Part shown: piece after piece, positions 1-26,936 of the stretch
Position numbering within the stretch: the stretch's first letter is position 1
Layout: the number at the start of each line of letters is the position of its first letter
Source: a virus
Strand: one strand, 5' to 3'
Virus record (IMG/VR): IMGVR_UViG_3300027598_000092
Coordinates: 1-26,936 of that record
Length of the DNA: 26,936 bases
Position numbers and translations under genes: made by a program
The notes under the pieces: generated by a model
Seen by the model: the letters and a program-made list of their open reading frames with translations, nothing else
What the model was told of the DNA's origin: nothing
The model's database searches: none

Positions 1-464
1 AATGAATATCTTTCATAATTGCAAGTGGGTACAAAGTGCACGGCGTCGTATTCAAATTCGATTTTTGCACCCGCTTCGTCGTCTATGCGGTGCAAACGAT
101 CGTCCTCAAAGACGTAGAATCCGTTACTTTGACTTGTGGTAAGGCATACGAGATGCAATTTTTTAATTGCATACTTGTCTTGGTGTGGTGCAATATAATC
201 GCCCGGCATGTAACGTTGAATTTGAATAAACTGATAGAAGTCCTTCAGGTCTTCATCCCATCCGCCCCCTGAAAAGATTAAATTAACTAATTCTTTTGGC
301 ATGTCTTCACTTAGAAGACTAGAGAATCGTGAGCTATGGCCATAGGTATCTCCGTGAGAAAGATGACCTTCTCTTGGTCTAAAAAGTTCTGCTATATGCG
401 GTTGTTGGACATATGCCACGATGGCGTCTGCGTTACGTTGAAATTTTGGAATAGTAAGAGGCAT
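1..464 (-). CDS. 2OG-Fe(II) oxygenase, prolyl-4-hydroxylase-like (C-terminus cut by window edge)
   Basis: The reading frame is open to the window edge, with 154 residues visible. It carries the full dioxygenase signature: RYMPGDYIAPHQD gives iron ligands H94 and D96, the segment VHFVPTCNYERYS gives the third ligand H143, and R152/S154 fit the 2-oxoglutarate-binding RxS. The strand before HxD (IQIQRYMPGDY) is typical of prolyl 4-hydroxylases, which hydroxylate proline using O2, Fe(II) and 2-oxoglutarate. The start overlaps the stop of the preceding gene as TAATG, implying translational coupling. It lies in a leftward cluster with two glycosyltransferases. Family membership is well supported. 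The substrate is inferred: a protein proline is my preferred guess because of the GT60 gene nearby, but phage 2OG oxygenases can act on other substrates, including nucleic acids. Confidence 0.85.
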   Translation of the reverse strand, partial: MPLTIPKFQRNADAIVAYVQQPHIAELFRPREGHLSHGDTYGHSSRFSSLLSEDMPKELVNLIFSGGGWDEDLKDFYQFIQIQRYMPGDYIAPHQDKYAIKKLHLVCLTTSQSNGFYVFEDDRLHRIDDEAGAKIEFEYDAVHFVPTCNYERYS

Positions 465-1117
465 TAGAGTTCTAGTATATGTTGTAATGTATTATCACCA
501 AGCATGATGTCTTTGGTCGAGTTATAATAGTGTTCAGGTACATTATATCTATTCAGATAAAGAGGATTATCAATTTTATTGTTTGCCACAGATCCACTAA
601 TAACAGATTCCGATACATCCGTAAATTCCTTAATGTATTTGGATGGATCTTTAACGTATCTCGCTACATCAAATTGAAGAGCAAACGACAAATCAAAAAC
701 ACCAGTTCTGCTTGCTTGTTCGAATTGAGATTTCCAACTTCTTACATGCGAATCATTCGTCAAAATAAACCGATTAATATCCTGAAGAGACAAAGATGCA
801 CTTTGCATTGATTCAATGGTCTTGTATAGAATATAATCATAAATGCTATATTTCAAATAAATCAATGTATATCGAAAATCTCCAGGAGGCAACTTTGAAA
901 ACACAGGCAACATATTGAGAGGATATGCTGGTAGATATACTGCTGTATGCGGAGATGCTTTGATTCTCTCTTTGATATTGATAACAGTACCAACATCTAA
1001 TGATTCTGCCGGAGTACCAATAATATTAGTAGAACTAGCCACATTGCTTAGTGATCCAAATATGTTTAATATTCGGTCGGACATGTAAGTTGGTAATCCG
1101 AAAAATATATATTTCAT
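464..1117 (-). CDS. Unknown 217-residue protein of the modification cluster
   Basis: I do not recognise the family. The protein starts MKYIFFGLPTYMSDR; the middle is mixed alpha/beta and the C-terminal half is polar and Asn/Tyr-rich. No membrane segment or clear catalytic motif is visible. The start at 1117 is chosen over an in-frame ATG at 1198 because it forms an ATGA overlap with the preceding glycosyltransferase stop and has an AGGAGG ribosome site 10 bases upstream. The 27-residue extension from 1198 would lie wholly inside the upstream gene. The TAATG junction with the next gene suggests it is co-translated with the oxygenase. Its place between a glycosyltransferase and a dioxygenase suggests a role in glycan or protein modification, but that is context only. 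Confidence 0.75.
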   Translation of the reverse strand: MKYIFFGLPTYMSDRILNIFGSLSNVASSTNIIGTPAESLDVGTVINIKERIKASPHTAVYLPAYPLNMLPVFSKLPPGDFRYTLIYLKYSIYDYILYKTIESMQSASLSLQDINRFILTNDSHVRSWKSQFEQASRTGVFDLSFALQFDVARYVKDPSKYIKEFTDVSESVISGSVANNKIDNPLYLNRYNVPEHYYNSTKDIMLGDNTLQHILEL

Positions 1118-1842
1118 AATTCTGTTGCCTCCTGAATATATTTTAGGGTGTCTGTGTAATATGACTGCGAATATAATCGCGAAACCACCGCACGACACCT
1201 ATAAGCGAATCGAATCAGGTTATTATAATTTTTCTCAACAACGCCAAACAATCCTGCGTAACATTCTTCACAAGGCACAAAATTTTCAGGACCATCCATA
1301 TTCTTGGTCTTGAAAAACAAGCTATTGTCGTCAGTCAAAAATTGCATACTGCCTCCAGAAGGGGATGATAAAATCGGCACAGAAAACATAGCGGCTTCTG
1401 CTAGATACCTACCAGAATAATTAGTACGATGATTAGAACAAATTAAATGACTATTTTGTAACAGTCCATAATATTCCTCTGTCGGAAGCTTGCCAATATA
1501 TCTAATATTAGCAATTGGCATAGTTTTTACAATATTAGGATGCGGATCGTAATTGAATTTAAATGTGACTGTATATTTTTGAGATAAGCCTGATTTTAAA
1601 ATATATTTAATCAGCGCCAAAGTGTCGCTAGTGTCGTAATATTCTTCCTTTTGGAATAAAAACGTAATATTAAAGGTGTGCTTAGAGTCGATATAAGACG
1701 AATTATAATTTTTTTGAAATACTGTGGGGTCAAAAGGTTTTATGAGCGTGAAAGAATTGGGATAGTCGGATTCCCAATAGCTAGATGGTATGACATGAAT
1801 ATTTTTTTCTTTTAAATATTCTTCATATTGTACGATATCCAT
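1114..1842 (-). CDS. Glycosyltransferase, GT-B fold, GT4-like C-terminal domain
   Basis: Likely a nucleotide-sugar-dependent glycosyltransferase. The segment from about residue 105 (RYIGKLPTEEYYGLLQNSHL) through SGRYLAEAAMFSVPILSS is the usual GT4/GT1 donor-binding half: the beta-alpha unit xxGxLPxxEYYxLL, then a helix with acidic residues before a VPI strand and a Gly-rich loop. At 242 residues it is much shorter than the 350-400 usual for GT4 enzymes, and the N-terminal acceptor-binding Rossmann domain seems reduced to about 100 unrecognisable residues. It may therefore need a partner. A late-type promoter motif lies 5 bases before the ATG, so expression with the virion genes is expected. 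It could extend the sugar added by the GT60 enzyme encoded just upstream. Confidence 0.75.
   Translation of the reverse strand: MDIVQYEEYLKEKNIHVIPSSYWESDYPNSFTLIKPFDPTVFQKNYNSSYIDSKHTFNITFLFQKEEYYDTSDTLALIKYILKSGLSQKYTVTFKFNYDPHPNIVKTMPIANIRYIGKLPTEEYYGLLQNSHLICSNHRTNYSGRYLAEAAMFSVPILSSPSGGSMQFLTDDNSLFFKTKNMDGPENFVPCEECYAGLFGVVEKNYNNLIRFAYRCRAVVSRLYSQSYYTDTLKYIQEATEL
1128..1133 (-). promoter_or_regulatory. Shine-Dalgarno site AGGAGG for the gene starting at 1117
   Basis: A perfect AGGAGG ends 10 bases before the ATG at 1117. It is the only strong ribosome-binding site noticed in the window, and with the ATGA overlap it decides the start of this gene. Confidence 0.6.
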
Positions 1843-1847
1843 GATGC

Positions 1848-1854
1848 TATTTAG
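1848..1854 (-). promoter_or_regulatory. T4-type late promoter element, CTAAATA
   Basis: On the minus strand CTAAATA is followed by 5 bases and then the ATG of the GT-B glycosyltransferase. It matches the NTAARTA motif shared by eight other leftward starts here and resembles the T4 late -10 element TATAAATA. It lies in the 58-base gap after the GT60 gene. Confidence 0.65.
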
Positions 1855-1900
1855 AACAGCAGGTATACATATTCAAATCAAAATTCTTTTCCAATTTTAG

Positions 1901-3154
1901 TTACAATTTACCTATTATTCTTCTACACCATCCTTTTGATTTTGAATGAGGATGAACAGCCCAATATGCGGGTTTTGTGTCTGTTGAAAATTCGCGCCAT
2001 ATTTTACAATACCCGTCGGGATCTCTTCGCATTAATGCGATTTCATCTATATTGGCATCGCTGCGATAAAGGACGTCGTTATTTGTGCTGTGGAATGTAA
2101 TCGACCAAAAATCATAATCGTCTTCGGCGAACTGACTGCAACTAATATCAATACAATGCTTAAAAATCGATTTAAAGCTATCGAGCCATAATTTCTCACT
2201 GATATACTCAGTTGGGTCTGGTGGATTATGTTTTTCTAAAGTATGCTTCTGTACAGATCTTTTTTCAAAAAGAATACCTGCATATTTTTCATAATCTCTC
2301 AGAGTTCTTGATTTGCCAAATCCGTATACACCATCATGACCTTCTTGCGTGATGCCGTCTATACCAAACAGTTTGCGATTGGTGGCATGTGATTTAATAT
2401 TCTTTTCGGCCCATTTTTTATCATCGTCCCAATGCTTTGTTCTTTCTTTTCTCGTATATTCGTGCCATATCAATACCCGATGTGGGTGAAACAAATCATA
2501 CCCGTGAGTATACGCCCTTGCTGCTATTGAAATTTCTTCTCCGTGAAAATAGTAATCGGGGTTATGTTGTACTACCTTTGCAAATTCGCCAGACGTGAAG
2601 CAAAAATGAGCGGAGTAAAATCTTGCGGGGACTGGTTCTTTTAGTTTTTCCCAATCAGGCATCACCTCCGGCACGAAGAATACAACACCTTCTGGGGAAA
2701 ATCTGTCAAATGACATTCGCCAAGGCACACGCACTCTTCCCTCAGGGTCATTGGCGGGATTAAATGATGACGCATATGCGGTTAATAGAGGTTTTTTATA
2801 TCCTCTTTTCTTTAAATCTTCTATCATTTCTATCATTTCGAAATCCCAATTCTTTTCAAACCGCATATGAGAATCAATTTGCAAAGTATATTCTTCCGAA
2901 TCATAAAGTTGCTGTACTGAATTGCGCGCCCAGCACACACCCTTTGATTGTTCATATGGAATATCTATAATTTTAAAGCGAGTATCGTTTTTATACTCAC
3001 TCAAATCATCGAATTTGTCCGCAGGATGATATTGCCGTGCGATTGCAAATACTAAATTTTCAGGAAATTTTGAATTGTCGATACACGATTTAAGGGTATG
3101 GCGCAATTGAGGGTCTCTATACGACGCTATCTGAATAAAAATGCGACTAGACAT
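1901..3154 (-). CDS. GT60 family glycosyltransferase (Skp1 GlcNAc-transferase-like)
   Basis: This belongs to the GlcNAc family typified by Dictyostelium Gnt1, which transfers GlcNAc from UDP-GlcNAc to hydroxyproline of Skp1. Visible family motifs, in order: FIQIASYRDPQLRHTL (residues 6-21), CWAR (74-77), LQIDSHMRFEKNWD (91-104, with the DSH metal/nucleotide site), HGEEISIAARAYTHGYD (204-220), and an IWHEY segment near 229. The catalytic domain covers roughly residues 1-240. The last 130 or so residues are an extra region I do not recognise. The protein has no signal peptide, so it should act in the host cytoplasm. It is followed by a second glycosyltransferase and, two genes on, by a prolyl-hydroxylase-like oxygenase. 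Family assignment is strong; the acceptor is inferred. Confidence 0.9.
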   Translation of the reverse strand: MSSRIFIQIASYRDPQLRHTLKSCIDNSKFPENLVFAIARQYHPADKFDDLSEYKNDTRFKIIDIPYEQSKGVCWARNSVQQLYDSEEYTLQIDSHMRFEKNWDFEMIEMIEDLKKRGYKKPLLTAYASSFNPANDPEGRVRVPWRMSFDRFSPEGVVFFVPEVMPDWEKLKEPVPARFYSAHFCFTSGEFAKVVQHNPDYYFHGEEISIAARAYTHGYDLFHPHRVLIWHEYTRKERTKHWDDDKKWAEKNIKSHATNRKLFGIDGITQEGHDGVYGFGKSRTLRDYEKYAGILFEKRSVQKHTLEKHNPPDPTEYISEKLWLDSFKSIFKHCIDISCSQFAEDDYDFWSITFHSTNNDVLYRSDANIDEIALMRRDPDGYCKIWREFSTDTKPAYWAVHPHSKSKGWCRRIIGKL

Positions 3155-3212: not shown

Positions 3213-5828
3213 TTACACGGGCGTCGGGGTAGGTGTCGGCGACGGTGATGTAGTTACTTCTACTGATGTGTATCCGCCAGGACCAACCTCATTTACTGCG
3301 CGGACGTAAATCGTGTATACACCATAGCTTCCTACATCAATAAGTAGAGGAGGTTCAGTCTCCACTGCATCTGTCCAAATTGTATAAGGATCAAGTGGAT
3401 CACTTAGTGTGTATTGGTATATTGTGATCGGCGATCCGCCATCATATGGTACTGTGAAGTAAAGTGCAGCTAAAGTATTGCTAGTATCGTATGTTATTGA
3501 CGGTATCGTCGTTGGGATTGTAGGCACAATTGGTACAATTGGTACAACTGGCGTGGCTGTTGGTGTGGCGGTTGGCGTAATCAAGACATCATTGCAATAC
3601 GAGTTATATGTTGCGCTATCGATGATAGTAGTATTTCCTGTTGTCAGGGTTATGATGGTAGCGATATCTGAGCGCAATCCATATGTAACGGCGTAATATT
3701 CACCGTTATAAATAAGATACTGACCGCTGTATACAAATCCATCTGCTGCATCTACCCCGTATTTGATAGTAGAGCCGCACATTTGCATAACTAAAATTTC
3801 ACCACAATCACCAAATCCAACACTAGCATTGGTTATAGTTGCTGGATATAATGTAACCGGACCGATATAAGCAATTGAATCTGTTTCTTCTCCGTATAAT
3901 TGGTTTCTTGAACCTCTCAATGTTTTGCGATACCTTTTAAACTCGACTTCAATTTCAAAATAGAGATTATTTTCTTTTAGGTATGTATCGGTCTCTGATG
4001 CAGTTTTACCCATTACAATGGATGCTAATTCGTCTAATTGATCGTTTGCAAAATTAAACCACGAATCCCCTACATACCATTCATCTAATATTTTCGAATA
4101 ATTTTCAACATAGTTAAAATTCCAGCTTCTTGATTTTTGGGCATCAGCGGCAAATGTTTGTGAGCTTAATACATTAGCAACGGCAATATTCCAAAATGAA
4201 TATCTGCGCTTACATGTTTCTACTGGCTTATTAGTATAGTTGATATTAGGACGAACATAATACTCGGCACCTCTAACGCTGTAATCAGGCAGTGCAGATA
4301 CAGAGAATAGAACAGTGGCTTGTTTTATTTTTTCGCCTGCTTGATATTCTGGTAATTCATATCCATATTGATATACATCTATTATGGTGACATTTTCAAT
4401 CAACTGGGATGTTTGAGGAACTATCGACACATAATAGTAATTTCGATTATCGAGATTGATATATACGACAGATCCTAGATATGGTTTGAGTAATGGATTC
4501 TTAGAATACAATACAGTCTTTGATGTATTAAAACACGACGGTGTTAATTTGTAAAGCAGTGTATCTTTAGGTTTTGGGATTTCTTGTGAATTACAATCTT
4601 CATAAAGATCTACAACAGTATACTCTTCTGTTATCTGCTGATTATCGTAAACTACCTTTTCAATATACCATCTTACTCCTGGATACTCTGCAAGAGTAAC
4701 AGCCTTGCCTGGGATTAAAATGCGTTTATTATCAATGACAAATAATTCTTTTCGAAGAGTTCCGTTAACAACATCTGGGCATGGCTGATATTTCCAACAG
4801 CAATTTGTCAATTTGATTATAACGGGTGCTGCTCTATTGATTCTATATTCACACCCACATTCGCAATCTTCAGATGATGCTACTACAGTCCAGTCACCAG
4901 CAAGACCATCTATTTGCACTGTAGTATCAGATCCAGCATAAAATTGGAATTCATCATTTGTTGCTACGATTTTTTCCTGAGTAAACGTATTGGTTAGGAT
5001 ATAACAAGTATCACTACAACCTTTCTTTGTTGTGAAAATAGGATTAAGATTTGTAGTGATTGCTTTATCTGCAACCGATACTTTACTTACTAAGAATCTT
5101 TGATCTGGGTATTTGTCCAGAACAACCCCAAGACCTACTAAATGGCTATAATCATTAGATGAATAAAAAGCAAGACCAGGAACTGAACAAGATGCAAATT
5201 TATAATAATAGCTAAAACCTTCTGGTTCTGGTTCACAAACCTCAATGACGGACTCTGGGCAATAAAAAGGATTCATTGTAGGCCAGTATTCCCATTTGAG
5301 TATGGGGTATCCTGTCTTGATAAATCGACCCATTAAGAATCTTTCGTTATTGTTAACCGCATTAAATTTGGATACAAAATACGGTGCCAGGATAGGATTC
5401 GGTCTATTTGTTTCATCTGCATATTGTCTTAATGCAAATACATATAAATCATTCAAACGGCAGTCTGCAGATTCTGCTGGAAACGTAGTTTCGAGCCATT
5501 TTGAAATAGTTGTTGCGAAGGTGGACCGGTCTGTTATTTTGATTGGGCAAAATACTGTTACAGGCTTTACTGCGAAACATGAAGTCGATCTGGTTATCGA
5601 CACCATATCGTTTAACGATTTGTATTTTTCTTTACCTGTAGATGTATCAAGCAAATATGCAGTTGTTGCTACAATATCCTGCAGAATCGGAACAGCTTCA
5701 GATATTTTTTTTGTCTGTGTGTATATAACACCCGTTTGTTTATCTATCCACTTAAAATGATCATTGATAAGCACAATGGCCGAACCTGCGCTTTCAGTGT
5801 CTTTAATTTGTGGATACGAACATGACAT
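3213..5828 (-). CDS. Large virion structural protein with FN3 domain and Pro/Thr-rich segments
   Basis: An 871-residue protein, probably part of the tail or its fibres. Residues 1-136 match the N-terminal module of the adjacent 266-residue protein: both have AG-x5-IN-x2-F-x3-D near residue 15-30, then TFxxxIxxWLxxxFP and VFxL. Residues about 209-490 hold four beta-rich units, several starting Y-K/R-hydrophobic and containing Cys pairs, including ECGC near 323-326. A Pro/Thr linker (751-777, PTATPTATPVVPIVPIVP) leads to a fibronectin type III-like domain (778-860), and the C-terminus is SPSPTPTPTPV (861-871). FN3 domains on phage virions are known to bind surfaces or carbohydrate. The gene starts one base after its neighbour's stop, with a late promoter motif inside that neighbour's end. 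The Pro/Thr tails are candidate substrates for the nearby hydroxylase and glycosyltransferases. Confidence 0.8.
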   Translation of the reverse strand: MSCSYPQIKDTESAGSAIVLINDHFKWIDKQTGVIYTQTKKISEAVPILQDIVATTAYLLDTSTGKEKYKSLNDMVSITRSTSCFAVKPVTVFCPIKITDRSTFATTISKWLETTFPAESADCRLNDLYVFALRQYADETNRPNPILAPYFVSKFNAVNNNERFLMGRFIKTGYPILKWEYWPTMNPFYCPESVIEVCEPEPEGFSYYYKFASCSVPGLAFYSSNDYSHLVGLGVVLDKYPDQRFLVSKVSVADKAITTNLNPIFTTKKGCSDTCYILTNTFTQEKIVATNDEFQFYAGSDTTVQIDGLAGDWTVVASSEDCECGCEYRINRAAPVIIKLTNCCWKYQPCPDVVNGTLRKELFVIDNKRILIPGKAVTLAEYPGVRWYIEKVVYDNQQITEEYTVVDLYEDCNSQEIPKPKDTLLYKLTPSCFNTSKTVLYSKNPLLKPYLGSVVYINLDNRNYYYVSIVPQTSQLIENVTIIDVYQYGYELPEYQAGEKIKQATVLFSVSALPDYSVRGAEYYVRPNINYTNKPVETCKRRYSFWNIAVANVLSSQTFAADAQKSRSWNFNYVENYSKILDEWYVGDSWFNFANDQLDELASIVMGKTASETDTYLKENNLYFEIEVEFKRYRKTLRGSRNQLYGEETDSIAYIGPVTLYPATITNASVGFGDCGEILVMQMCGSTIKYGVDAADGFVYSGQYLIYNGEYYAVTYGLRSDIATIITLTTGNTTIIDSATYNSYCNDVLITPTATPTATPVVPIVPIVPTIPTTIPSITYDTSNTLAALYFTVPYDGGSPITIYQYTLSDPLDPYTIWTDAVETEPPLLIDVGSYGVYTIYVRAVNEVGPGGYTSVEVTTSPSPTPTPTPV

Positions 5829-6931: not shown

Positions 6932-9118
6932 TTATAAAATTAATTGGTAATATGTTTTCTCCCAAGAACCTACTGGTTTGGCGTTAGTAATCCATGTGCC
7001 TGAACTCGTTGATTGCCTATATCCATTGAAAACTTGACCGGATCCAGACGGAGGATACACCCCAGGTGCAGTAGAAGCAGGAACATATGCAATTCCTCTC
7101 GAATATCGACAAATTCGGCTGTTGTACTCCGCATAATTGCTGCCGCCACCCCCATACCCAGGGATATCAATGCCATATTGTAAATCTCTCAAAAGATATT
7201 GAGTATAGCCTGCTAGGTTAGTTATATCGATAGTCGAAAACTGATTATTAGGATATGTACTGATAAATGCGGCATATTCAAATGAAGTACCGATTGTAAC
7301 TAATGCACTATATCTAAATAGGTAAGAACCTAAATCAGAGAAAAATCCATTATTAACAGAAGATAAGTGATTAAGGTATCCAAAAGATTGCTGGGTCATT
7401 TGTGTAGCTAAAGGCACTATCTTGGATGACAGTGGAATTAAAGCTTGTCTGTCTGTATCAGTCACACCAAAGTCCATCAATCGTTCGCTCTCCAATGAAG
7501 CAAGTCTGGTCATTGAACCTCCATCGTTTGTTGTTCCTATATGAATACCAGTGCCCATGCCCTCGAAATGGACGCTGTCCACAGACACCCCGTCACCTTG
7601 ATAAATTAATATTCCAAATAATGGCCAAGTTCTTATGTATGGGAAAGATGCAGTTAGCGCTGCTGATGTGGTAGAACAATCTATTGTCCCAGTTTTAATA
7701 TTACAAACTGATGTATTTTTATTAATAAAGATAGGTATCGCTCCACGACGGGTTGCTTCTTTAATCCAGAAATTCTGAATTTGCAATCCATTGATAATAC
7801 CACCATCTTGTTTCGTCGCGTCGCCAGCATTACGCCAAGTGTCATACATGCCGCCGCCAATTCCCATGCCGGAAAAATACTGAATATCCACATCACGGAT
7901 AATAGTATTCTCTTCGACATTATGTTTCCATGAAATTCCGCTAATTCTTTTAGTTGGATTATTAATTGTAGCCTCCGCAGCAACGATGGTCATGCCTTCT
8001 ACACCACTCCAGTATCGCGCCCCGCCCCCACCAGACATCGGAGCTACCCCAGACCAGTAGCTCCCGTTTCCACCCCCAATCCAAAATAGAGAAGAAGCAC
8101 AGCTGGCTGTTTCCATTTCAGTATCTAATGTGATTGGTGTGGCGAATCCTGTAGTTGTACCTACAAATGTAGTCCCAGAAAGAACTATTGATGTTAATGC
8201 CACTGCTGCTGTTGTACCGCTAACTGTATGGGTGCCGTTATACAGTGGCGAATTTGTTATGCGTGCCTGGCCGCCGCTTAAAAATTCAAATGAGCCACCG
8301 GTTGGGGTAATTAATTTAGTGCCACCAGGGACAGAACATGCAGCAGTAAAGTTGGTAGTCCCGCTGTATTTCATGAAATTACTCCAAAATCTGAATCGGG
8401 TCGTTGGTTGCCAAGTATCAGATGTCCATAATTTGGATGCGATTATTTTAGTAGCATTAGAACCAGCACCCTTAAATCGAATTGCTAATTCTGTAGCATC
8501 TAGCGGCCTTCCGACATAATAAATACCAGCAGCAAAGCTGATAGTTCTGCCGATACTAAAGGACGGATCTGATGTACGAATAGCGCAATTTATTGCAATA
8601 TCATGTCTACCGTCGTGCACTGTAGACCCCTGTAGACCCCACCACTCCGGAAATATTTCACTATTTCTCATTGTGCCTTTTATAGTACTAGCCGGCCAGT
8701 TGCTAAATATTTGCACCCGAGGGGCTACCACCTCGCCCTCGATAAACAAAATAGTTAAACCTGTTCTGATGAACTTATATCCATTAAAAATGATAGAACA
8801 TCGCGCTGGAATTGAAAGATTGCCCGGCGCGCTAAAGGAAATATCTTTGCCTAGAATTATAGTCTGAATTGATGAGTTGTTTTTAGCTGCTATGAGTTCG
8901 TCATACGTCGTAACAAATGCCTGCGACCCGCCGGCCCAAAAGCTAGAATTAGAACTAACTAACGAAAATAGAGGCAGACTATTATTTAAATTCAACAATG
9001 TAACTCGACCAAATCCATCTGCCCCTGGCTGGCCATTATCACGATAAATCAACATCTGGGCCGATGAGGACAAAGACGCTAACGAAGATAGATCCGTAAA
9101 ATTAACAATACATGCCAT
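6932..9118 (-). CDS. Tailspike / tail fibre protein with right-handed beta-helix (pectate-lyase-like)
   Basis: A 728-residue receptor-binding or depolymerase-type protein. The hallmark is EIFPEWWG near residue 175, the conserved entry to the beta-helix of many phage tailspikes (usual form FPEWWGAxGDG). It is followed by an AI-x2-A helix and repeated beta strands rich in Gly, Asn and Ser to about residue 600. The C-terminal part (GYGGGGSNYAEYNSR to the end) is a separate, probably trimerising or binding domain. I place the start at 9118 (MACIVNFTDLSS) because a late promoter motif lies 7 bases before it and it begins just after the upstream stop. An in-frame ATG at 9205 would overlap the upstream gene by 65 bases and add an artefactual hydrophobic leader. 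Active-site residues cannot be assigned. Confidence 0.82.
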   Translation of the reverse strand: MACIVNFTDLSSLASLSSSAQMLIYRDNGQPGADGFGRVTLLNLNNSLPLFSLVSSNSSFWAGGSQAFVTTYDELIAAKNNSSIQTIILGKDISFSAPGNLSIPARCSIIFNGYKFIRTGLTILFIEGEVVAPRVQIFSNWPASTIKGTMRNSEIFPEWWGLQGSTVHDGRHDIAINCAIRTSDPSFSIGRTISFAAGIYYVGRPLDATELAIRFKGAGSNATKIIASKLWTSDTWQPTTRFRFWSNFMKYSGTTNFTAACSVPGGTKLITPTGGSFEFLSGGQARITNSPLYNGTHTVSGTTAAVALTSIVLSGTTFVGTTTGFATPITLDTEMETASCASSLFWIGGGNGSYWSGVAPMSGGGGARYWSGVEGMTIVAAEATINNPTKRISGISWKHNVEENTIIRDVDIQYFSGMGIGGGMYDTWRNAGDATKQDGGIINGLQIQNFWIKEATRRGAIPIFINKNTSVCNIKTGTIDCSTTSAALTASFPYIRTWPLFGILIYQGDGVSVDSVHFEGMGTGIHIGTTNDGGSMTRLASLESERLMDFGVTDTDRQALIPLSSKIVPLATQMTQQSFGYLNHLSSVNNGFFSDLGSYLFRYSALVTIGTSFEYAAFISTYPNNQFSTIDITNLAGYTQYLLRDLQYGIDIPGYGGGGSNYAEYNSRICRYSRGIAYVPASTAPGVYPPSGSGQVFNGYRQSTSSGTWITNAKPVGSWEKTYYQLIL
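8621..8640. repeat. Perfect 10-base tandem duplication
   Basis: Two adjacent copies of TGTAGACCCC lie in the tailspike gene, encoding the residues just after FPEWWG. Ten bases is not a multiple of three, so gain or loss of one copy would shift the frame. Confidence 0.7.
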
Positions 9119-9125
9119 ATAATTG

Positions 9126-9132
9126 TATTTAC
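9126..9132 (-). promoter_or_regulatory. T4-type late promoter element, GTAAATA
   Basis: Minus-strand GTAAATA, preceded by an overlapping TTAAGTA, ends 7 bases before the ATG at 9118. It supports that start for the tailspike and sits just after the stop of the 2490-residue gene. Confidence 0.6.
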
Positions 9133-9140
9133 TTAATGGA

Positions 9141-12100
9141 TTAGCTTGACAAAGAATAAAGTGACAAAATACTAGAATTACCACCCAAGGAAAGAACAGA
9201 CCCATTCGGAGAAAGTGCCATATAACCTTGATGTATTTCTGGAATGCGTGTGCCGCTAAGTGTTACCACTTCGCAACAACCACTACCAACAGATGACATC
9301 TGTTCCCATGTTCTACCACCAATACCAGGACTATCTGATCTCAATTCAATAAATGAGATTGGATTTACGATACAATTCTTTTTAACTGGATCATAAGATC
9401 CCATCGATGCCCAAGACCAGCACCAGCTATTTTTACACATATCAGATCCAATGATTGTGTCAAGAGATACTCTTAGTTTATCAAGATTTGCATACAGATG
9501 CTTAATTACCCGATTGATAACGTCTGTAAATACAAGCTCATTTTGTCCAATGAAACATTGGCTGAAATCGAATTGCGGTAGTTCTGCTGTCAACATCGGT
9601 TCCATATCAATAGATATATTACCAGCAAGATCGATGCTTCTCACATATTTGGAATGTATGTTTTTGGCGAGCAATTCGAAATTATCTTTGATTCTGTTAA
9701 ATACGACATTATATACCCAGTCTTGAATCAAATCTTGTTCTTCGATCAAAATATCATCAGCTTTCCATAGTGCACCTTCAATATCATTTATAATGCTCTT
9801 GATTGAAACAAAATCTGTATTTTTATAGATTGATCGGGTGTCGATAATATAAACGCCTCTACCATACTGACAGATGCTATTGAGTTGAGTTACATATGGC
9901 GTATATAAAGGCATAAAATATCCGAGATAATACCCCTGAGACGTAATCTTGGATATGTGTGTATTATATACGATATAAATTATACCATCATCAATATTAT
10001 TAGCATGTATTTTAACAGGAGTGCCTGCAAAAGGATTGGCGATGCCTGATATTGTGCTAACATATTCGCCTGTGTTATTGAATGTGTATATCTGGCCATC
10101 TGCTGTTAATACATATACATTCGCTGCAGTATCTGTAGTGATGGATACTAAATTATTCTTCATTACCCATTCCCCGTGAGAAATGTTATAGAAGTATTGC
10201 ATCTTATCATTATAAACTTTAATGACATCATTATTCTTGTCAATCACGTATATCTTGCCTAGATTATAATGGATATCAGTCGGGGTGTTAAATCGATATG
10301 GGCGATGAGCATTGCCCAAACCACCGATTTTGTTTAAAAATGTAAACGTTCCAGTACTATATTCGATGCTGTAGACATATACGCAATGATTCGCGGTGTC
10401 TGTTATGTATATTTCTCCATCGTCATTAATAGCAATGGAGTCTAGCTTCCCTACGTAATCTTTTTCTCCGACGAGATTAGTATCGTTTAATTTTCTCGAA
10501 AGTCGATCCAAATCATATATTTTAATACTATCCGTGATTGTATTATCTGTATTCCGATCAATTACAATTAATCTATCATTGTATATCTTGGCATCTTGTA
10601 CGTCATGAAATTCAGTAGCGTCGAATTCTGGGAAAACATTAACCCAATCTGATTCGGATACATCATTCCAACGATGGCCTTTGCTATTCTCCGCTCCTAA
10701 CCATTTATTAAACAATACTGGCAACTTGGTATCATTAAGTTTTGATTTATTGATCAAATAATCAAAATTAGCAAGCAATTTCTTGAGTGAACTATTAATA
10801 TTATTAGCATTGGCAATCTCGTTTGGTGCTACATAGATTTGATCCAAACTATAAGGGAATATTAATTGTTCGTTGTATGTTCGTGCATTTTTGTCAAACG
10901 TGTCAAATGCATTAACTACATTGATAGCTCTATCATATTTCGATTCAATTGTCGTTTGAATTGATGATAGGAGCCCGTATGTATTCGCAGATACGGAGAT
11001 AGAATATACACCAATGTCATTAAGGTTGTTAAACGCAAACGTTTCAGTTGATGCTGGATATACTTGTGTCTGGCCATTAAATGTTATTGATATCGAGCCC
11101 AATCCATAATCAGCACCACCACAGTTTGTATTTTTGTAATAATTTTTGATTGTCAATGCAGACCCAATAGCATAATAATCTTCATCCCAGAATAGATTGA
11201 ATGTTGGTATCTTAATCGCCGTAATTGTGTCTACTCTTGTAGATGTTGTTGTTTTACCAATTTCTACAGAATTGTACGCATTAGTTACTATTGTATCTGT
11301 AGATGTGATAGCCAAGACGGCACAGTTGTATGAGTCTGGATCTGTGATGATATTATCAGGAATTGTAATGGTGTTATTGTTAAATCCAGAGACTAAGCTA
11401 TACTCAATCGGTCCATATGTTATTGATTGTTGTGTATCCAGACTACGAATGTTTACATATGAGGTAGTAGTACCCCCAACAACATATTCGCCTTTATTAT
11501 TTGAAGTAAATACAGCTGCATCATATAAACTACTAATTGAATCCGAATAAAAATATACATCTGCAGGCTCTGCTGATATCACAGGCGTTGCCAAATCGAT
11601 AAATTGCAATGGCTTGAAATAATCAGACGTGACGCTAGAGTTTGCTGTATAAATTACATTATTGCGATCTTGTAGTAAGTTAATTGCATTTTTAACATTG
11701 ACATATGCAGTTTTATTATCATCATAATCCGCTCTCGATGTAAGAGCAGTTAATGAAGGGACTACATCTAGCTGTAGATAATACCCCTTGACAGATATAG
11801 CAGATAATGTACCCGCAGTTCCTTTGATTGTGGCTGATGCAATTGGTGAATTGGTTACATATTCCTTTTCGTTTCCAATGGTCCATGCATATGTTTTATA
11901 TCGTGTTCCGAACGAGCTTAACACAAGTGTTTCTGTATGGCCATTTCCAACGGTTGTTAATTGTGTATTAACTGTTATTGAGTTTAGAGTGTTGACTGCT
12001 GACGGTCCTTGGTTGGTAAATGTATTAACCGTCCACACCTTTGCACTGAGCTCATTGACAGATGCTTGTGGTGATACATATACATAGAGTGGTTTTGACT

Positions 12101-25201: not shown

Positions 25202-25208
25202 TACTTAT
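25202..25208 (-). promoter_or_regulatory. T4-type late promoter element, ATAAGTA
   Basis: Minus-strand GATAAGTA ends 11 bases before the ATG at 25190, the only copy of the motif with spacing outside 5-7. It contains the TAA stop of the upstream endonuclease gene. Confidence 0.6.
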
Positions 25209-26936
25209 CTATCTTTGTATACAAAAACTGCATGACCACAATCCCAAATTCTGTCAAATCCATTATTCAACATGTTTTGATACTCCGATAGATTCTCATC
25301 ATATTCTTTTAAGACCTTGTGTAATCTATGTTTCATAAATCCACTGCGGTGTTTGAGTGTATTGTTGATGACATACCAATAACCTGGTTTGCTGTCATGC
25401 TTATGTTTGAATCCTAATTTGTGGTATAGATCACCATTCGAATATCTCAAGTCGGCATAAGTGATGATGTTTTGTGGGTTGTGTGTATTAATGAAATATT
25501 TTAGAAGCCTCGAAGCACCACCAATGACAGTGTGGTTTAATTTATTACAAAACCGAATCATCTCCCAATCACTGTAATCACCTTTGACAATTTTACGATG
25601 ACCAAAAGTCATCATAGATACCAATTGACTGTCATGGTATAGCCCATAAGAAATTTGGCTATTATCGTTTCCTTGTATATGGTTCTCGTCTAGGAATTTG
25701 ACCTTCTCATGTCTATCAGTTATTTGGTGGATGGTGCACTTTCTGCCAAATATCCTTTTCGAAATACCCAATTTACTATCTATAATAGATTTGACAATTT
25801 GTTGCTTTGTTTGCCATTCAGATTCCCATATCTGGATTAATTGAATGTTTTTAGCTTTGCATTCCATATATTTATTACGATGGTAATTTTTGTCTTTTCC
25901 ATTTGATTCATTGTGCCAATATATGCCATTGCATTCGATTGCTATGTTTTTTGATGGAATAAATATGTCTATTTCTTTTGGTGGTATAACGTCTCTTGAA
26001 TTATTAATACACTCCAACCCAAGGGTTTTTATGTATTGATATACCTCTAATTCGAATGCACTTGATCGAGGATTGCATTGAGGGCATATAAGTGTGTTTT
26101 GCCACTGACCACTCGATATGGATCTGGTAAATTCGTGGCCACATGTCTGGTGCTTAATGTGATGTTTTCCTTCGTTTATGCCGTGGTTGGTAATCAATTC
26201 GTAGCCATTGTCTAAAAAATGTTCGGTCACTAATTTAATGCGATTTTTCTTTTTGGACTCTGCTACAAGTTGCTGGGAGCATCTTTTTGCATGGCATGAT
26301 GAATAGCCAAATTTGCTATTTCGGAAGTTAAGGTGATTACCACATTTATGGCATTTTGGTGGTGTGTGTATGTTATGTATAAAGTTATAAAATACTTGTG
26401 ACCATTTTATATCATCTCCATACTTAATATATCCGATTTTTAGCAGAGTAGATAGATGCGTACTATGTGTTCTTAGCAACGCTGTATTAAATGTTGAATT
26501 AGGTTGCTGAAGCCTTTCGAGGCAGAACGCCATTAAAGCATCATGTGATACTAATTCATGATTTGAATTTAAAATTTCAACAAATCCATTTTTTTTATTC
26601 TTCTCTGTGTTAATCTTTCCGTCTTTGCATGATTTCCATTTTGTAGATGCTCTCTTGCAAATGTTGTTTGAGCAAGTTTTTGAATATGGTTTGTTTTTAT
26701 ACCCCTTCCATTTTAATGGCTTATTGCAAGCTTTACATCTTTGCTGAGATGTGGTCTTATTGACGATACAGTAAATTCGTTCAGAACAGCATGCTTGCTC
26801 GTCTAGAAATTTGGTCTTTTCTTTTATACTTTGATACAATTCACTAGAATCAAACCCGGGTTGTCTTAGCACAGCACTATTAATGTTACCTGTTTTGGTG
26901 TATAATTGTGCTTTTATCTGTTCTATGAGTAATTCA
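25205..26936 (-). CDS. Freestanding homing endonuclease, Vsr/EDxHD-type with zinc modules (N-terminus off window)
   Basis: At least 576 residues. The frame stays open to the window edge, so the GTG at 26872 is not necessarily the start; visible upstream residues begin ELLIEQIKAQLY. Two similar N-terminal modules each carry N-S/T-A-V/L-LR followed by a Cys cluster (CKACNKPLKWKGYKNKPYS...C; CHKCGNHLNFRNSKFGYSS...C), and a third zinc-like segment (HQTCGHEF ... ICPQC) follows. Next is a Vsr-like nuclease core: SAFELEVYQYIKTLG, EIDIFIPSKNIAIECNGIYWH, LIQIWESEW. The C-terminal part (YGLYHDSQLVSMMTFG, WEMIRFCNKL, GGASRLLKYF, YADLRYSNGDLYHKLGF) is a GNAT-like domain often fused to such phage nucleases. 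It probably cleaves a related phage genome to spread itself. It sits next to tail genes, a common site for such elements in T4-like phages. Confidence 0.82.
   Translation of the reverse strand, partial: ELLIEQIKAQLYTKTGNINSAVLRQPGFDSSELYQSIKEKTKFLDEQACCSERIYCIVNKTTSQQRCKACNKPLKWKGYKNKPYSKTCSNNICKRASTKWKSCKDGKINTEKNKKNGFVEILNSNHELVSHDALMAFCLERLQQPNSTFNTALLRTHSTHLSTLLKIGYIKYGDDIKWSQVFYNFIHNIHTPPKCHKCGNHLNFRNSKFGYSSCHAKRCSQQLVAESKKKNRIKLVTEHFLDNGYELITNHGINEGKHHIKHQTCGHEFTRSISSGQWQNTLICPQCNPRSSAFELEVYQYIKTLGLECINNSRDVIPPKEIDIFIPSKNIAIECNGIYWHNESNGKDKNYHRNKYMECKAKNIQLIQIWESEWQTKQQIVKSIIDSKLGISKRIFGRKCTIHQITDRHEKVKFLDENHIQGNDNSQISYGLYHDSQLVSMMTFGHRKIVKGDYSDWEMIRFCNKLNHTVIGGASRLLKYFINTHNPQNIITYADLRYSNGDLYHKLGFKHKHDSKPGYWYVINNTLKHRSGFMKHRLHKVLKEYDENLSEYQNMLNNGFDRIWDCGHAVFVYKDR

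Follow-up and report, generated by a model that had tools for sequence, protein, structure and literature searches.

The virus record IMGVR_UViG_3300027598_000092 (here the window: the entire record, 26,936 bases) encodes at its left end an enzyme of glycosyltransferase family GT60, next to a fibre-like protein with Thr-Pro-rich stretches. We find it reasonably likely that this enzyme starts mucin-type O-linked N-acetylglucosamine (O-GlcNAc) glycosylation on Thr/Ser residues of Thr-Pro-rich virion fibre or adhesin proteins. An original prediction, made from the sequence of the window, had assigned the same cluster to a different pathway, namely hydroxylation of proline by a phage oxygenase followed by capping of the hydroxyproline with GlcNAc. 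Because the record also encodes a tail tube protein and has close contigs of up to 193–196 kb, we take it to be one piece of the genome of a large tailed phage. Genes were called as simple open reading frames. The left end holds the following genes, all leftward; the four of them that had been placed in positions 1–3154 are indeed present, at 3–3154, and the two overlaps described between them, ATGA (1117–1114) and TAATG (466–462), are both real.

3..464, (-): 2-oxoglutarate (2OG)-Fe(II) oxygenase with a fold like that of prolyl 4-hydroxylase (P4H); 154 of 159 residues; HxD 94–96, H143, RxS 152–154
464..1117, (-): 217-aa protein, no assigned family; ATG start at 1117, in the ATGA overlap
1114..1842, (-): 242 aa, glycosyltransferase of the GT-B fold (GT1/GT4-type), C-terminal half only; PF00534 at residues 110–182
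1901..3154, (-): 417-aa enzyme of the GT60 family of polypeptide GlcNAc-transferases; PF11397
3213..5828, (-): 871-aa protein, probably a fibre or adhesin; Thr-Pro-rich stretches; homologue in relative L009

The window encodes a genuine GT60-family enzyme

The product of 1901–3154 matches PF11397 with E=1.1e-66 (226 bits, the cut-off being 21) and phrog_24687 with E=5.9e-154. The motifs by which the gene had originally been recognised, CWAR, DSH and HGEE, lie at residues 74, 94 and 204, respectively; DSH and HGEE do not vary, and CWAR hardly does, across 15 GT60 relatives, among them those of Xanthomonas phage XacN1 and of Stenotrophomonas phage RAS14. Membership of the family is therefore certain, and GlcNAc transfer is the activity predicted from it. 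Past the Pfam domain, phage GT60 enzymes carry a conserved C-terminal part of ~110 residues. A PDB sequence search with the enzyme gave no meaningful match, i.e. no solved relative. Such genes are common in phages, where we found 448 stretches that carry one.

The family holds both Dictyostelium Gnt1, which acts on the hydroxyproline of Skp1, and a polypeptide alpha-GlcNAc-transferase of Trypanosoma cruzi (PMC6939170); the latter attaches alpha-GlcNAc to Thr of mucins (PMC3769586). Since GT60 spans Gnt1 as well as the Thr-acting T. cruzi enzyme, membership of the family does not by itself point to hydroxyproline. Our searches of open-licence papers found none on GT60 in phages, none on the combination of mucin-like proteins and glycosyltransferases in phages, and none on PF11397 except for a brown alga genome.

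Thr-Pro-rich tracts track GT60 in phages

Towards its end, the 871-aa protein encoded directly upstream of GT60 (3213–5828) has two short stretches rich in Thr and Pro (TPTATPTATPVVPIVPIVPTIPTTIP, TSPSPTPTPTPV), which the original prediction does not mention. Thr-Pro tracts are long in the relatives L009 and L011, and in the L009 homologue of this protein they lie between stretches that, read by eye and not by profile match, resemble fibronectin III.

We analysed the closest 80 of the 448 phage GT60 neighbourhoods, taking up to 10 kb on each side and dereplicating the loci at 90% identity into 34 clusters. A tract was counted as S/T/P-rich when a 30-residue window held at least five Pro, at least ten Ser+Thr and at least 18 of these residues in all. 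By this rule, the gene directly upstream of GT60 encodes such a tract in 17/34 clusters and the gene directly downstream in 0/34 (p=1e-6), while some gene of the locus does so in 28/34. DNA coding for TPTxTPT is present in 32 of 35 GT60 records as compared to 1 of 41 control records; these were chosen by way of a gene with no relation to GT60, in most cases using an NrdA motif (an NrdB-anchored set was dropped because it held too few loci), and PF11397 was found in none of the 40 in which it was sought. When only records of up to 45 kb are considered, the contrast is 7/9 versus 1/31. The reverse test gave a result in the same direction: GT60 is found in 10 of the 50 contigs selected for (TP)4 and in 0 of the 47 selected for (GA)4. 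Since the p-values treat records as independent, they are too small. The 90-kb contig L380, closely related as judged by NrdB, lacks GT60, the oxygenase and the Thr-Pro pattern alike; as the syntenic region is not within the 19 kb around its NrdB, we give this little weight.

The association recurs in distant phages and in some bacteria

Two distant cultured phages carry GT60, with enzymes 44% (XacN1) and 42% (RAS14) identical to that of the window. TPTxTPT sites number 51 in XacN1 and 22 in RAS14, and the reversed pattern is found in neither. In XacN1 the sites fall in at least 13 proteins, several of them encoded next to genes for the tail sheath, baseplate and head. According to the main text of the paper describing this phage, its virions contain at least two detected glycoproteins, and the only transferases annotated there are ORF328 and ORF334 (PMC5852040). 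ORF334 is the GT60.

Around bacterial GT60 genes, 12 of the 259 positions within two genes hold S/T/P-rich genes, as compared to 0 of 281 positions four to six genes away. In Saprospiraceae (L510) and Jiulongibacter (L518), a Thr-Pro-tract protein whose start resembles an export signal, as read by eye, adjoins GT60. The L518 locus (Jiulongibacter sediminis, 7942–11227) lies on a bacterial chromosome and has two GT60 genes, the second matching PF11397 with E 3e-34, that flank a 262-aa Thr-Pro-tract protein. In a Gemmatimonas metagenome-assembled genome (L517, 9167–9886), the protein encoded directly upstream of GT60 seems, by eye, to combine a PqqD-like first part with an end rich in Ser, Thr, Ala and Pro.

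That virion proteins are the targets had originally been concluded from a late promoter before the GT-B gene. Two other lines support the conclusion, namely the association of GT60 with Thr-Pro tracts and the glycoproteins that the text of PMC5852040 reports for XacN1 virions. The promoter is not supported: against 5.0 expected copies of TATAAATA the window has one, which lies elsewhere, and TCTAAATA at 1848–1855, a few bases off the start codon, is a form with one mismatch, of which 3 were found and 2.5 expected.

A different target would be the host surface. The island could alter lipopolysaccharide or capsule, e.g. in superinfection exclusion, with the Thr-Pro tracts serving as flexible linkers of fibre genes. 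The variable neighbours seen in relatives fit this idea, matching GT10, HtrL_YibB and Capsule_synth, which are families linked to surface polysaccharides, and so do the 40 of 50 Thr-Pro contigs without a detected GT60. However, known GT60 enzymes use polypeptides, the association with Thr-Pro tracts is seen again in distant phages and in bacteria, and the virions of XacN1 contain glycoproteins, as its main text states (PMC5852040); we consider modification of the host surface very unlikely. In the (TP)4-selected viral contigs without GT60 (L114–L193), other transferases may serve the Thr-Pro tracts.

The oxygenase has a P4H-like modelled fold

The contig end cuts the oxygenase frame (3–464) off at 154 residues; in relatives the full protein has 159 aa. 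Its HxD...H...RxS site is complete, as had been claimed, and HxD (94–96), H143 and R152xS154 are invariant in six relatives that are 65–100% identical. For the protein of the window, Pfam gave no match and PHROG only a marginal one. PF13640 is weakly matched in the relatives L012 and L014 only, with E of about 1e-4 to 1e-2, below the cut-off. We found no close relatives of the oxygenase among named phages; a profile scan for a wider family returned nothing beyond the same 13 contigs, and a PDB sequence search with the profile gave one chance match.

An AlphaFold2 model from an alignment of six close sequences (predicted local distance difference test (pLDDT) 71, predicted template modelling score 0.72) was compared with the PDB using Foldseek and matched the double-stranded beta-helix fold of 2OG enzymes with probability 1.00. 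The closest folds are Pseudomonas P4H, PHD2, chlorovirus vCPH and Dictyostelium PHD. Structures of the P4H/PHD type dominate the top 23 PDB fold matches; PasI ranks third, ALKBH6 and ABH2 rank 24–25 and PolD ranks 28. The identification of the protein as a 2OG oxygenase is well supported. A particular likeness to P4H is suggested by the modelled fold, with an identity to known prolyl hydroxylases of only 11–17% in the Foldseek matches and with AlkB proteins in the same list; on this model, prolyl specificity is plausible. Collagen-like GXY repeats, a possible hydroxylase substrate, were absent from the four large window proteins searched.

The oxygenase could, together with the neighbouring half-GT-B, act on nucleic acid (AlkB-like repair or base modification) or on a small molecule (sugar or nucleoside tailoring), unrelated to GT60. 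This possibility concerns the oxygenase only and is compatible with GT60 modifying Thr-Pro tracts. The structures of ABH2, AlkB, PasI and PolD match in the same E-value range and the half-GT-B is the constant neighbour of the oxygenase, but prolyl hydroxylases outnumber every other group among the top PDB matches and, in our own reading of the gene order, the cassette sits between fibre-like and head-completion-like genes. We regard such an activity as possible, if doubtful. The oxygenase probably hydroxylates protein or acts as a dioxygenase on glycans.

The oxygenase belongs to a clade-specific trio of genes

All six oxygenase contigs that reach far enough upstream carry GT60 there, on the same strand; they represent three lineages, with oxygenases 100%, 98% and 82% identical to that of the window. 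Seen from the side of GT60, the picture is different: the oxygenase is present in 3 of the 80 neighbourhoods, all of one phage group, and a motif screen of the 80 yielded no further convincing oxygenase. The two genes thus co-occur in one direction, from oxygenase to GT60, and not in the other. Among 41 large GT60 records that do not belong to the oxygenase group, 7 have PF13640 matches (six above the cut-off and one marginal). Where positions were compared, these lie ~40 kb from GT60 (in G039, e.g., the two are at about 29 kb and about 69 kb). XacN1 and RAS14 have no PF13640 match. The GT60-bearing phage of G043, the 321-kb record behind L070, has three PF13640 oxygenases, none of them adjoining GT60. 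When ten bacterial GT60 neighbours with an oxygenase-like motif were scanned, one proved to be a 2OG enzyme (PhyH, in L516, four genes off) and the rest were unrelated or unmatched.

The constant partners of the oxygenase are the half-GT-B and the 217-aa protein. What had been called a GT-B glycosyltransferase (1114–1842) is the C-terminal, nucleotide-sugar half of a GT1/GT4-type enzyme, and of the two Rossmann-like domains of the fold (acceptor and donor) only the donor domain is matched; its PF00534 match is below the cut-off, and that of the L012 relative passes it. The 217-aa protein, which matches no Pfam or PHROG family and whose fold model was discarded at pLDDT 44, always lies between the half-GT-B and the oxygenase. 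The three genes form a conserved unit that in L012 and L013 stands beside other genes. Given this placement and the 3/80 count, we consider the oxygenase a clade-specific accessory. In L009 (6058–8593) and L007 (2703–4370), extra genes not found in the window separate GT60 from the trio; those of L009 are GT10-like (a fucosyltransferase family) and HtrL_YibB.

These data bear directly on the two-step pathway of the original prediction, in which the oxygenase would hydroxylate a proline of a virion protein, GT60 would cap it with GlcNAc and the half-GT-B would extend the glycan, as PhyA and Gnt1 act on Skp1. The GT60 is real and belongs to the family of Gnt1, the oxygenase combines a P4H-like modelled fold with a complete active site, it has GT60 upstream in 6/6 assessable contigs, and the neighbouring protein has proline-rich stretches (PTATPVVPIVPIVPTIP). 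However, GT60 mostly occurs without the oxygenase, with no PF13640 match in XacN1 and RAS14; the trio is kept beside different genes; identity to known prolyl hydroxylases is low, and AlkB and nucleoside-antibiotic oxygenases reach similar scores; and gene order ties GT60 to a Thr/Ser-Pro-rich acceptor, in a family that is also Thr-acting. The two-step pathway is therefore weak; it could apply only to this one small phage group, and there we judge it rather unlikely.

Other features of the window and its relatives

At 6932–9205 (-) the window encodes a 757-aa protein with a weak match to PF20585 (pectate-lyase-like adhesive domain), probably another fibre protein. A homing-endonuclease-like protein (25205–26935, (-); phrog_559/3339, weak REase_MTES_1575) is encoded near the tail tube gene. 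The NrdA frames of L007 (10302–12509), L011 (15124–17328) and L012 (8745–10934) enter an intein-like sequence after MPCEK (CLKWDT...); NrdA of L014 is uninterrupted, without the intein-like sequence.

Discussion

Since GT60 adjoins the Thr-Pro stretches of surface proteins in relatives of the window and in some bacteria, we conclude that these phages probably sugar-coat their own fibres. We propose that GT60 would transfer GlcNAc onto Thr/Ser of Thr-Pro tracts in virion stalks in the host cytoplasm, with the protein encoded directly upstream (3213–5828) as the first acceptor. The glycan may then be extended or varied by adjoining transferases, i.e. the half-GT-B in the window and GT10-like, HtrL_YibB-like and other enzymes in relatives. 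The half-GT-B, the 217-aa protein and the oxygenase would constitute a clade-specific module joined to the GT60 island, and the oxygenase could make hydroxyproline sites in the same Thr-Pro tracts. Dense glycans on such tracts would stiffen the stalks and shield them from proteases, as they do in mucins. In its fullest version, the proposal is that large phages and some bacteria share an undescribed mucin-type O-GlcNAc system, in which GT60 is paired with surface or fibre proteins that have Thr-Pro repeats, and that in the clade of the window a virus-encoded prolyl hydroxylase provides extra attachment sites, which would make this the first phage with glycosylated hydroxyproline. We consider this version quite unlikely.

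Several points weigh against glycosylation of Thr-Pro tracts by GT60. The activity of the phage enzymes and their glycan are predicted throughout. The stretches in the window are short (about 31 residues by the tract rule), and the case rests on relatives. Because the counts come from the closest 80 of 448 loci, they are inflated by common ancestry. The contigs selected by (TP)4 that lack GT60 are the majority, many of them being fragments. Finally, the main text of the XacN1 paper assigns neither the glycan nor the glycoproteins, the words threonine and proline are absent from it, and ORF328 could be responsible (PMC5852040).

T. cruzi TcOGNT-2 and Dictyostelium Gnt2 are, like the GT60 of the window, members of PF11397, and their likeness extends to the proposed acceptor, Thr in Thr/Pro-rich mucin-like sequence. 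They are Golgi enzymes, whereas the enzyme of the window is phage-encoded, has an extra C-terminal part of ~110 residues and has a predicted activity. The Skp1 pathway of PhyA and Gnt1 in Dictyostelium and Toxoplasma resembles the window in that a P4H-like oxygenase, a GT60 and another transferase occur in one cluster; it differs in that in phages the two genes are rarely together, there is no Skp1 and proline hydroxylation is putative. Chlorovirus PBCV-1 likewise glycosylates its own virion proteins, and chlorovirus vCPH is among the folds closest to the oxygenase. PBCV-1 is, however, a eukaryotic virus and its capsid glycosylation uses other transferase families. XacN1 shares with the window GT60 (ORF334), together with many Thr-Pro-rich proteins and virion glycoproteins, and differs in having no PF13640 oxygenase; the text of the XacN1 paper describes glycosylation of phage structural proteins as rarely identified (PMC5852040).

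In hundreds of viral contigs, a gene of a polypeptide GlcNAc-transferase family is genetically tied to long Thr-Pro tracts of fibre-like proteins. If our explanation is true, both the enzyme and the acceptor behind mucin-like phage coats would have a name, and mass spectrometry would offer a simple test for such coats. It would also suggest that O-GlcNAcylation of surface proteins by GT60 is a bacterial trait as well.

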